DNA of 64,000 bases from Kineosporia succinea (GTDB lineage Bacteria; Actinomycetota; Actinomycetes; Actinomycetales; Kineosporiaceae): the NCBI RefSeq assembly GCF_030811555.1, contig NZ_JAUSQZ010000001.1, positions 558,001 to 622,000 on the forward strand, read 5' to 3'. This document shows positions 43,231-51,724 of this stretch, piece after piece; within the stretch, counting starts at the first letter, position 1; every line of letters starts with the position of its first letter. The translations under genes and the position numbers were made by a program. The notes under the pieces are model-generated. The model made no database searches and was not told the DNA's origin. It saw only the letters and a list, made by a program, of their open reading frames with translations.

Positions 43231-43283
43231 ACCAGGAACGGACGACGTGGGCACCCGGGGTGCCCACGTCGTCCGTTCCTGGT
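43231..43283. terminator. Very long bidirectional hairpin between propeller gene and cimA
   Basis: Bases 43231-43256 are the exact reverse complement of 43258-43283, a 26-bp arm with a single central base. It starts 2 nt after one stop codon and ends 15 nt before the convergent cimA stop. No T-run follows on either side. Confidence 0.8.
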
Positions 43284-43298
43284 GCCGGGCACAAGAGA

Positions 43299-44891
43299 TC
43301 AGACCTGCGACCGGACCCCGGAGGACGCCAGCCCGTAGACGAAACTCTCCAGCAGCGCCTGCCAGCTCGCGTCGACCATGTTCGTGCCGACACCCACGGT
43401 CTGCCACACCGCACCGGCCCCGGTGGTCTCGACCAGCACCCGGGTCACCGCGTCGGTGGCCGATTCCCCGTCGAGGATGCGGACCTTGAAGTCGGTCAGC
43501 TTCATCCGCTCCAGCTCCGGGTAGACCGGCAGCAGCGCCTGACGCAGCGCGTGGTCGAGTGCACTGACCGGGCCGTTGCCCTCGGCCGTGGCCACCCGTC
43601 GCTCTCCCCCGGCGGTCAGCTTCACCGTGGCCTCGCAAACCGATTCCGGACCGCGGGATTCCGTGATCACCCGCCAGCTCTCCACCTCGCAGAACAGTGG
43701 GCGGGTGCCGTGCACCTCCTCGTGCAGCAGCAGCGAGAACGACGCGTCCGCGGCCTCGAACGTGTAACCGCGGGCCTCCAGGTGCTTCACCCGGTCGGTG
43801 ACCCGGCCCAGCAGTTCGCGGTCGCTGGACAGGTCGAAACCCAGCTCCCGGCCCTTGAGCTCGATCGACGCCCGCCCGGCCATGTCCGAGACCAGCATGC
43901 GCATGTCGTTGCCCACGGCCTCCGGATCGATGTGCTGGTAGAGGTCCGGGTCGACCTTGATCGCGCTGGCGTGCAGGCCGGCCTTGTGCGCGAACGCCGA
44001 GGCCCCCACGTAGGGCTGACGGTTGTACGGCGTCACGTTGGCGATCTCGTTGACCGCGTGCGCGATGCGGGTGATGTCGCGGATCCGGCCGTCGGGCAGC
44101 ACGAGCCGGTTCAGCTTCAGCTCGAGATCGGCGAGAACCGTGATCAGGTCGGCGTTCCCGGTGCGCTCGCCGTAACCGTTGAGCGTGCCCTGCACCTGGA
44201 TGACGCCCGCGTCGACCGCCGCCAGCGAGTTCGCGACGGCGCAGCCGGTGTCGTTGTGGCAGTGGATGCCCAGGTCGGCACCCGAGGCCGAGCGGACGTC
44301 GTGCACCACGTCGGCCACCTGGTTCGGCAGCATGCCGCCGTTGGTGTCGCACAGCACGATCGCCTCGGCCCCCGCCTCGGCCGCGGCCCGCACGACCTCG
44401 AGGGCGTAGGCCTGGTCGAAGGCGTAACCGTCGAAGAAGTGCTCGGCGTCGAGGAACACGCGGCGTCCCTGCTCGCGCAGATGCCGCACGGTCTCGGTGA
44501 CCATGGCCAGGTTCTCGTCGCCGGTGGTGCGCAGAGCGCGCTCCACGTGCCGGATGTCGCTCTTGGCCACGAGTGTGACGGCCGGGGCGAGGGAGTCGAG
44601 GAGGGCCCGCACCTGCGGGTCCTCGTGCACCTTCACGCCCGCCTTGCGGGTGGCGCCGAACGCGGTGAGCACCGCGTTCTTCAGGTCGAGTTCGGTGGTG
44701 GCGCGGCGGAAGAACTCGGTGTCCTTCGGAATCGCGCCCGGCCAGCCACCTTCGATGAAGCCGACGCCCAGTTCGTCCAGATGACCCGCGATCGCCAGCT
44801 TGTCCTGCACCGAGAGGCTGAGCCCCTCCTGCTGGGCGCCGTCGCGCAGGGTGGTGTCGTAGACCTGGAAGGTACTGGGGTTGCTCTCCAT
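43299..44891 (-). CDS. cimA: Citramalate synthase
   Basis: 530 residues from ATG at 44891. HMGL-like TIM barrel: YDTTLRDGAQQEG near 11-23, the citramalate-type FIEGGWPGAIPKDTEFF, metal-binding GIHCHNDTG, NGYGERTGNADL, and an LeuA-type C-terminal regulatory domain (ATVKLTAGGERRVATAEGNGPVSALDHALRQAL). It condenses pyruvate and acetyl-CoA to citramalate, the threonine-independent route to 2-oxobutyrate and isoleucine. The GGWPG signature separates it from 2-isopropylmalate synthase. It is the last gene of the leuB-ilvE-cimA group and is preceded by an attenuator with a Val-Val-Ile-Ile leader peptide. Confidence 0.95.
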   Translation of the reverse strand: MESNPSTFQVYDTTLRDGAQQEGLSLSVQDKLAIAGHLDELGVGFIEGGWPGAIPKDTEFFRRATTELDLKNAVLTAFGATRKAGVKVHEDPQVRALLDSLAPAVTLVAKSDIRHVERALRTTGDENLAMVTETVRHLREQGRRVFLDAEHFFDGYAFDQAYALEVVRAAAEAGAEAIVLCDTNGGMLPNQVADVVHDVRSASGADLGIHCHNDTGCAVANSLAAVDAGVIQVQGTLNGYGERTGNADLITVLADLELKLNRLVLPDGRIRDITRIAHAVNEIANVTPYNRQPYVGASAFAHKAGLHASAIKVDPDLYQHIDPEAVGNDMRMLVSDMAGRASIELKGRELGFDLSSDRELLGRVTDRVKHLEARGYTFEAADASFSLLLHEEVHGTRPLFCEVESWRVITESRGPESVCEATVKLTAGGERRVATAEGNGPVSALDHALRQALLPVYPELERMKLTDFKVRILDGESATDAVTRVLVETTGAGAVWQTVGVGTNMVDASWQALLESFVYGLASSGVRSQV

Positions 44892-44930: not shown

Positions 44931-44962
44931 GAAAAAAGACCCCCCGCGAATGCGAGAGGTCT
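44931..44962 (-). terminator. Attenuator terminator in the cimA leader
   Basis: On the minus strand AGACCTCTCGC (44962-44952) pairs with GCGGGGGGTCT (44947-44937), with a loop ATTC, and six T residues (44937-44932) include the last stem base. It lies between the leader peptide stop and the cimA start (about 40 nt before ATG), as expected for transcription attenuation. Confidence 0.88.
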
Positions 44963-44983
44963 GCGCGTCGACGATGCCCGTGT

Positions 44984-45031
44984 CTAGGCCGTGCCGACGC
45001 GCCCGCGAATAATCACGACGCTGGTGTTCAT
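44984..45031 (-). CDS. Leader peptide of the cimA attenuator
   Basis: Fifteen codons from ATG at 45031 to TAG at 44986-44984 read MNTSVVIIRGRVGTA. Four consecutive Val-Val-Ile-Ile codons fit sensing of charged tRNA-Val and tRNA-Ile. There is no Shine-Dalgarno site. A CAGAAT -10-like element (45047-45042) 10 nt upstream suggests a nearly leaderless start. It is too short for ordinary gene calling. Confidence 0.8.
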   Translation of the reverse strand: MNTSVVIIRGRVGTA

Positions 45032-45084
45032 GCTGGGGGTGATTCTGCCACAGCCGTTTATGAAAACCCTCCACAGAATGAGGG

Positions 45085-45114
45085 ACGCGTCGGCACCCGT
45101 GGGTGCCGACGCGT
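45085..45114 (-). terminator. Hairpin terminator of ilvE
   Basis: A 14-bp perfect stem (45085-45098 with 45101-45114) with a 2-nt centre lies 27 nt past the ilvE stop. It separates ilvE from the cimA leader, so cimA has its own promoter. No T-run. Confidence 0.7.
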
Positions 45115-51626: not shown

Positions 51627-51661
51627 GAAAAGACCCCTCGGCCCAATGGGCACAAGGGGTC
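51627..51661 (-). terminator. Attenuator terminator in the ilvB leader
   Basis: GACCCCT/AGGGGTC (51632-51638 with 51655-51661) encloses GCCC/GGGC, followed on the minus strand by TTTT. It is located between the leader peptide stop (51686) and ilvB (51538). A competing GACCCGCGAG segment just upstream could form the alternative pairing. Confidence 0.88.
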
Positions 51662-51685
51662 GCGCGCTCGCGGGTCTTCATGACC

Positions 51686-51724
51686 TCAGCGGGCGCGCCG
51701 TCCAAGTACGAGAGTCTTACGCAC
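51686..51724 (-). CDS. Leader peptide of the ilvBNC attenuator
   Basis: From GTG at 51724 the peptide reads MRKTLVLGRRAR and stops at 51688-51686. The core LVLG-[KR]-R matches ilvB leader peptides of Streptomyces-type actinobacteria as I recall them (ILVLGKR). The start coincides with the predicted transcription start, so the leader mRNA is probably leaderless. A GTG six bases upstream would add two residues. Confidence 0.8.
   Translation of the reverse strand: MRKTLVLGRRAR

Follow-up and report, generated by a model that had tools for sequence, protein, structure and literature searches.

The leader of cimA in the window (the whole 64-kb stretch of DNA analysed here) is very probably a ribosome-mediated transcription attenuator of this gene, which would sense isoleucine by way of charged tRNA-Ile. 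Comparison of related leaders supports a short, probably leaderless open reading frame with an Ile-Ile codon pair, a near-fixed spacing and a conserved hairpin abutting a conserved terminator; from these we infer that a ribosome running to the stop codon leads to termination, that a stalled ribosome leads to read-through and that antitermination is positional. The best explanation of the whole, which we consider likely, is an isoleucine-sensing attenuator in which the abutting upstream hairpin serves as a positional antiterminator. Judged from sequence, the back-to-back hairpins and the Ile-codon ORF would thus probably let the cell make citramalate synthase only when isoleucine is short.

All parts of the leader are situated on the minus strand, between ilvE and cimA, the latter being the last gene of the minus-strand run ilvB, ilvH, ilvC, leuB, ilvE, cimA. 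The gene itself (43299..44891, ATG at 44891) was identified as citramalate synthase by TIGR00977 with 611.6 bits at a cut-off of 450. The sequence-only reading had described here, without stating the strand, a 15-codon open frame, an 11-bp stem, six T residues and cimA 40 nt further on, and each of these could be located. The leader ORF MNTSVVIIRGRVGTA (44984..45031, ATG at 45031 and TAG at 44986-44984) carries the control codons ATT ATT at 45008..45013, which are conserved across the cimA leaders. The intrinsic terminator hairpin, recognised by terminator scan, folding and covariation, occupies 44937..44962, its 11 bp joining 44962-44952 with 44947-44937 around the loop ATTC; the six T read after it (44932..44937), the first of which is paired in the stem, are separated from the ATG of cimA by 40 nt (44931-44892). 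What that reading missed is a 10-bp upstream hairpin abutting the terminator: arm 1, the 5' arm of the proposed antiterminator (44993..45002, minimum free energy fold, two-sided changes in 5 of 9 pairs), pairs as 45002-44993 with arm 2, the 3' arm (44972-44963), which ends directly at the terminator according to the fold, the covariation and the gap counts. Folding of the 116-nt leader gave -62.6 kcal/mol (z = -7.65) and none of 200 shuffles was as low, and a terminator scan over 2 kb around the element returned 4 sites against 0.7 expected. A 9-bp long-range helix of the window fold (CAGCATGAA at 45035-45027 with TTCATGCTG at 44933-44925) was rejected, being apparently not conserved in the genus relatives as compared by eye only. 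On both sides of cimA there are also gene-end palindromes with the core GGCACC...GGTGCC and no T-run (window positions 43250-43264 and 45092-45107); GGGCACC(N2-6)GGTGCCC is present 14 times in the genome against one occurrence of the reversed pattern, and these palindromes are perhaps U-less terminators.

The conserved part of the leader peptide is its isoleucine pair. In 119 cimA leaders, L073 alone being left out of this count, Ile occupies the penultimate control position in 115 cases and the last one in 101, and the position before these two is mixed (I in 46, L in 31, V in 22, so that one of the three is found in 99 of 119). The proposal that the leader senses valine together with isoleucine was therefore upheld for isoleucine and abandoned for valine, which is not conserved at the control position; among the leaders read, the Val-Val of the window is particular to its species. 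The cimA leader possesses the ORF with end-product codons that is expected of a ribosome-mediated transcription attenuator, and the match between these codons and the end product of the pathway is, at the level of sequence, the strongest sign of function. The control codons lie moreover in one common register in the Ile-Ile pairs of the 119 cimA leaders, the V/L/I mixtures of 29 ilvB leaders and the Leu runs of 5 leuA/leuS leaders.

For the start of the ORF, the 112 leaders with a recognised Ile pair and T-run were used, 6 leaders without an Ile pair having been dropped. An in-frame ATG or GTG without intervening stop was present in 112 of 112, and the other two frames gave 36 and 78, the latter number showing that the frame test is weak alone. 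A -10-like hexamer 6-10 nt before the start could be assigned in 109 of the 112 by a rule which is permissive by construction, and a TG-extended [CT]AnnnT was found ahead of the in-frame start in 95 of the 112 leaders against 166 of 2240 shuffles. Since so many leaders carry the TG-extended element, transcription probably begins at the start codon itself or very shortly before it. In the window the corresponding extended -10-like promoter element, predicted as read from the sequence, is TGGCAGAAT (45042..45050, minus strand), the start codon at 45031 lying 10 nt after it; transcription is predicted to start at about 45036-45033, which would leave a 5' untranslated region of a few nt at most. 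A sigma-70 scan of this region of the window found no promoter at the leader.

In order to follow the element in other genomes, the regions upstream of cimA in relatives were scanned, 45 leaders were aligned (A1) and the covariance model R1 was built from these 45. In the genome of the window (8.07 Mb) the model scores 79.8 bits at the cimA element, and the next best match, 23.0 bits, is at the ilvB leader. Under stricter filters, 261 of 394 Actinomycetes genomes match at E <= 0.01, ilvB-type matches being counted in. At 69 fetched loci with within-class matches of at least 44.9 bits (67 distinct places and 64 distinct sequences) the element is followed on the same strand, in 69 of 69, by a cimA called at an identity of at least 60%, whose start is 12-227 nt away; another within-class match of comparable strength, L147 (49.1 bits), stands upstream of ilvB, not of cimA. 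The sequence-only reading had made its proposal depend on the conservation of leader peptide and stem in close relatives, and a protein-first search from cimA found the element in all 13 same-family genomes, in 26 of the 29 loci L084-L112 (12 of which belong to the same family) and in 33 of 80 named records, the 45 leaders of the model belonging to these same protein-first sets. The named carriers include Pedococcus, Cellulomonas, Cellulosimicrobium, Isoptericola, Nonomuraea, Planotetraspora and Amycolatopsis, and further Kutzneria, Lentzea, Pseudonocardia, Nocardioides, Motilibacter and Demequina. Among the 32 order-level genomes listed, a list which leaves out 113 further genomes without a model match, cimA is present in 12; 10 of these match the model at E <= 1.1e-11 and two (G023 and G087) do not match, and the 20 genomes without cimA gave weaker matches in 2 cases. 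Among the loci compared, none of the 59 with the element has the end of another gene 60 nt or less from cimA, as against 15 of the 49 without it.

Both the upstream hairpin and the terminator show compensatory changes. In the A1 alignment two-sided changes were observed in 12 of 20 pairs and 96.2% of the cells were paired, a value which fell to 39-59% when the partner was slid by 1-3 columns; a further alignment made with the model (102 rows, 95 of them distinct) gave two-sided changes in 13 of 20 pairs. Such counts are numbers of sequences, not of independent events, and are inflated by the kinship of the leaders. The expectation of co-varying terminator and antiterminator stems was thus borne out as to the covariation of both stems, and in the place of an antiterminator sharing bases with the terminator an abutting hairpin was found. 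The 137 model rows were reduced to 130 by dropping 7 partial matches and to 120 by dropping identical sequences. Two loci deserve separate mention. Genome G294 has two strong model matches, one (L146, on G294:C15) ahead of a cimA with 50.4 bits and the other at G294:C6:196629-196726 with 62 bits, and may hold two attenuated cimA genes. At L073:312-400 a match of 24.7 bits with a Val-Ile-Ile-Ile leader lies about 1.1 kb upstream of cimA and probably serves another gene.

Between the Ile codons and the T-run exactly two outer helices were formed in 118 of 118 leaders (L073, with its distant element, and L194, whose T-run was not recognised, were dropped from this set), and the gap between them is 0 nt in 107, 1 in 9, 2 in 1 and 4 in 1. 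Six of these 118 have no Ile pair, and the spacing was therefore taken from the 112-leader set, where the first Ile codon is 11 nt from arm 1 in 81 leaders (range 9-14). The stop codon falls between -4 and +16 relative to arm 1 in 106 of 112; in the remaining 6 it is at +22 to +55, too far downstream for a terminating ribosome to cover arm 1 well. Arm 2 begins at least 12 nt past the stop in 98 of 112 leaders, against about 75 expected from permuted loops, and closer than that in 14; this clearance is in part a necessity, as a loop which contains the stop must be long enough to do so, and kinship inflates the count as well. The length of the upstream-hairpin loop, which varies from 2 to 62 nt, rises with the position of the stop (Spearman 0.71).

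The footprint of a bacterial ribosome extends approximately 12-13 nt beyond the first base of the A site, so that a ribosome stalled at the first Ile codon would end about at arm 1. We propose that, when isoleucine is sufficient, the ribosome would run to the stop codon, where its footprint would cover arm 1 and mostly neither arm 2 nor the terminator; with arm 1 covered the upstream hairpin would not form, the terminator would close and transcription would end before cimA. When isoleucine is short, the ribosome would wait with the first Ile codon in the A site and its leading edge approximately at the start of arm 1, the upstream hairpin could form, and RNA polymerase would read through into cimA. 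Only one assignment gives a physiologically sensible sign, namely that the formed upstream hairpin means cimA on, and we are inclined to regard this hairpin as the antiterminator. Nearest-neighbour folding gave the closing pair of the terminator a probability of 0.87 with arm 1 free and 0.85 with arm 1 masked, so that both hairpins are predicted to coexist and the switch is not explained by pairing energies; a conserved hairpin thus stands at footprint spacing, where its formation could depend on the position of the ribosome, yet its fold coexists with the terminator. Unusually, the upstream hairpin shares no bases with the terminator, and it would therefore act through its position: a helix that adjoins the foot of the terminator with no linker between could not enter the RNA exit channel of the polymerase, and the last pairs of the terminator would be left unclosed. 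This steric junction is put forward tentatively, with somewhat less than even confidence, as the physical cause of antitermination.

The main alternative to the steric junction is a pause role: the upstream hairpin would keep RNA polymerase waiting for the ribosome, and the switch would be a kinetic one. As the 5' arm of the terminator follows immediately on the hairpin, the polymerase would have moved about 10 nt past the hairpin by the time this arm is synthesised; in C. glutamicum ilvBNC, too, the first hairpin has been proposed to cause pausing (accessible text of PMC11857589). By itself, however, a pause gives no reason for the zero gap or for the other outcome in starvation, and we regard it as an unlikely full account, although pausing could act together with the steric explanation.

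In a classical attenuator of the E. coli type, the segment after arm 1 would on stalling pair with a terminator arm (2:3). A general family resemblance speaks for it, as does the loop-to-terminator antiterminator drawn for the Corynebacterium ilvB-II motif in the accessible part of PMC10272879. When loop and arm 2 were compared with both terminator arms against mononucleotide shuffles in the 112 leaders, no such 2:3 antiterminator was found: pairing with arm 3 had a mean z of +0.58, weaker than that of shuffled loops, and pairing with arm 4 a mean z of +0.11, equal to it. The terminating ribosome would moreover mask arm 1 rather than arm 2, and the classical arrangement is quite improbable here. 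In 2% of the leaders the upstream hairpin could be extended by one pair at its base.

It could also be supposed that the two hairpins are a plain, unregulated terminator which ends the upstream ilvE transcript. The position between ilvE and cimA would suit it, and adjacent hairpins appear to be discussed as terminators in PMC8355165. As a control, 35 terminator-like sites were collected from 844 kb of other actinobacterial-genome DNA, the window included. With 60 nt upstream also folded, a zero gap together with a strong upstream hairpin was found in 90 of 116 leaders (those of the 120 which the terminator finder recognised) and in 4 of the 35 control sites; this abutment at control sites agrees with a plain terminator. 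A zero gap of any strength was present in 7 control sites and a measurable gap was absent in 13, so that the zero gap is enriched at the leaders, not unique to them, and the enrichment is indicative rather than a probability, because the leaders are related and the seed scan for them allowed only inter-hairpin gaps of 0-3. An earlier, smaller control of 10 sites, with a zero gap in 7, was superseded by the set of 35, as sister attenuators in the loci are suspected to be among those 10. The 4 control sites at which a strong hairpin abuts the terminator without gap come from the window and from L206-L244, and some of them may be further attenuators. A plain terminator leaves unexplained the Ile-Ile ORF, the -10 element, the register common with the ilvB, leuA and leuS leaders and the placement ahead of cimA whatever gene is upstream, and is highly improbable; the isoleucine-sensing attenuator, in turn, has its intrinsic terminator between ORF and gene in the covarying stem with the T-run. 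A ligand-binding riboswitch (e.g. for ppGpp) or a protein-binding RNA can hardly be the case, for all the strong conserved structure and the ppGpp riboswitches that control ilv genes in some bacteria according to the accessible part of PMC10272879, since Rfam gave no match at gathering score at the element in the window or in six loci (at E <= 1 nothing but sub-threshold sRNA matches overlapped the element in these six, namely in L117 and L001), the unpaired bases that do not vary fall in the Ile codons and the T-run, and the loop is so variable in length.

If the isoleucine attenuator is true, the citramalate route to isoleucine would throughout the Actinomycetes be under an amino-acid-specific control of its own, distinct from the general branched-chain control at ilvB. 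The genome of the window also possesses a threonine deaminase-type gene (G000:C1:2183182-2184309, minus strand, TIGR01127 439.2 bits, over cut-off), which coexists with cimA, and the two routes to 2-ketobutyrate may thus be tuned separately. With 120 distinct natural variants of a single switch, and with spacing rules of about 11 nt from the first Ile codon to the hairpin, a zero gap to the terminator and a stop near arm 1, the coupling of ribosome and terminator in actinobacteria becomes accessible to tests. For production strains, the leader would mark a removable block on cimA.

The second best match in the genome is a sister attenuator ahead of ilvB (51632..51724, minus strand), where a leader ORF MRKTLVLGRRAR was read at 51724-51686, followed by a hairpin abutting a terminator in a two-helix fold with gap 0. 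The common layout was recognised in 29 ilvB leaders: 12 come from fetched Actinomycetes loci, one is that of the window, and 16 belong to the 20 loci which were fetched outside the class. Three leuS leaders (L150, L154 and L162) have gap 0 and Leu-Leu-Leu in the same register, and two leuA leaders (L204 and L251) have the same layout with Leu-Leu(-Leu) control codons; in 17 sister leaders (13 ilvB, 3 leuS and 1 leuA) the gap is 0 in 15 and 1 in 2. In a phylum-wide draw 40 of 149 genomes match the model at E <= 0.001, and the 20 loci fetched outside the class (L251-L270) comprise 16 ilvB, 1 cimA (L263), 1 leuA and 2 without an identified gene, matches of up to 51.0 bits preceding leuA or ilvB. 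Since the element outside the class stands mostly before ilvB, it would seem to have been attached to ilvB first and to have branched to cimA afterwards. It is a possibility, one we hold to be less likely than not, that the cimA, ilvB, leuA and leuS leaders form an Actinomycetota-wide class with an antiterminator free of base competition, in which a linker-free helix blocks the exit channel and the ribosome caps one arm, cimA being the isoleucine-specific member.

Among the known systems, M. tuberculosis ilvB1, Corynebacterium ilvB-II, C. glutamicum ilvBNC and Streptomyces ilvL likewise have a short ORF with branched-chain codons, a hairpin and a terminator with U-run, and some actinobacterial ilvB leader ORFs are reported as leaderless or as starting 1 nt from the transcript start (accessible parts of PMC13236596, PMC10272879, PMC11857589 and PMC8079986). 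The logic proposed for M. tuberculosis ilvB1, where a ribosome at the stop blocks the antiterminator and a stall allows it, is the same that we infer for the cimA leader (PMC13236596, in its accessible part). The cimA leaders differ from these ilvB leaders in the gene and in control codons which are Ile-Ile only. In C. glutamicum ilvBNC a GCC trinucleotide is reported to belong to antiterminator and terminator alike (accessible text of PMC11857589), whereas in the cimA leaders they abut without common bases. By analogy, one published result would count against the isoleucine attenuator: leader codon mutations of S. coelicolor ilvB are reported to be without effect on regulation, which does not fit classical attenuation (accessible part of PMC1262725). 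A search of open-licence papers for cimA or citramalate attenuation, leader peptides and Streptomyces cimA found no cimA attenuator; the S. lividans reannotation reports eight leader peptides, none of them at cimA, in the accessible text of PMC8079986, and that of PMC10272879 covers ilvB motifs. The cimA attenuator thus looks like an unreported relative of the known amino-acid attenuators.

Enterobacterial attenuators such as trp likewise combine an intrinsic terminator with a leader peptide in which control codons stand in tandem. Unlike these, the cimA leader has no 2:3 antiterminator that we could find and its ORF is probably leaderless, and a ribosome terminating on it would cover arm 1 while arm 2 stays accessible. 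The actinobacterial leuS attenuators (accessible parts of PMC1262725, and of PMC8079986 for leuL2) likewise consist of a leader ORF, two hairpins and a terminator, and differ from the cimA leader in their Leu codons and in the aminoacyl-tRNA synthetase gene which they precede; the terminator of our two leuA leaders is an ordinary one, in contrast to the LEU element of PMC1262725 (accessible text). The cimA leader shares with the actinobacterial ilvB and leuS types both the codon register and the hairpin abutting the terminator, and on account of the layout held in common with the ilvB, leuS and leuA leaders it appears as a new, isoleucine-specific member of the actinobacterial branched-chain attenuators.
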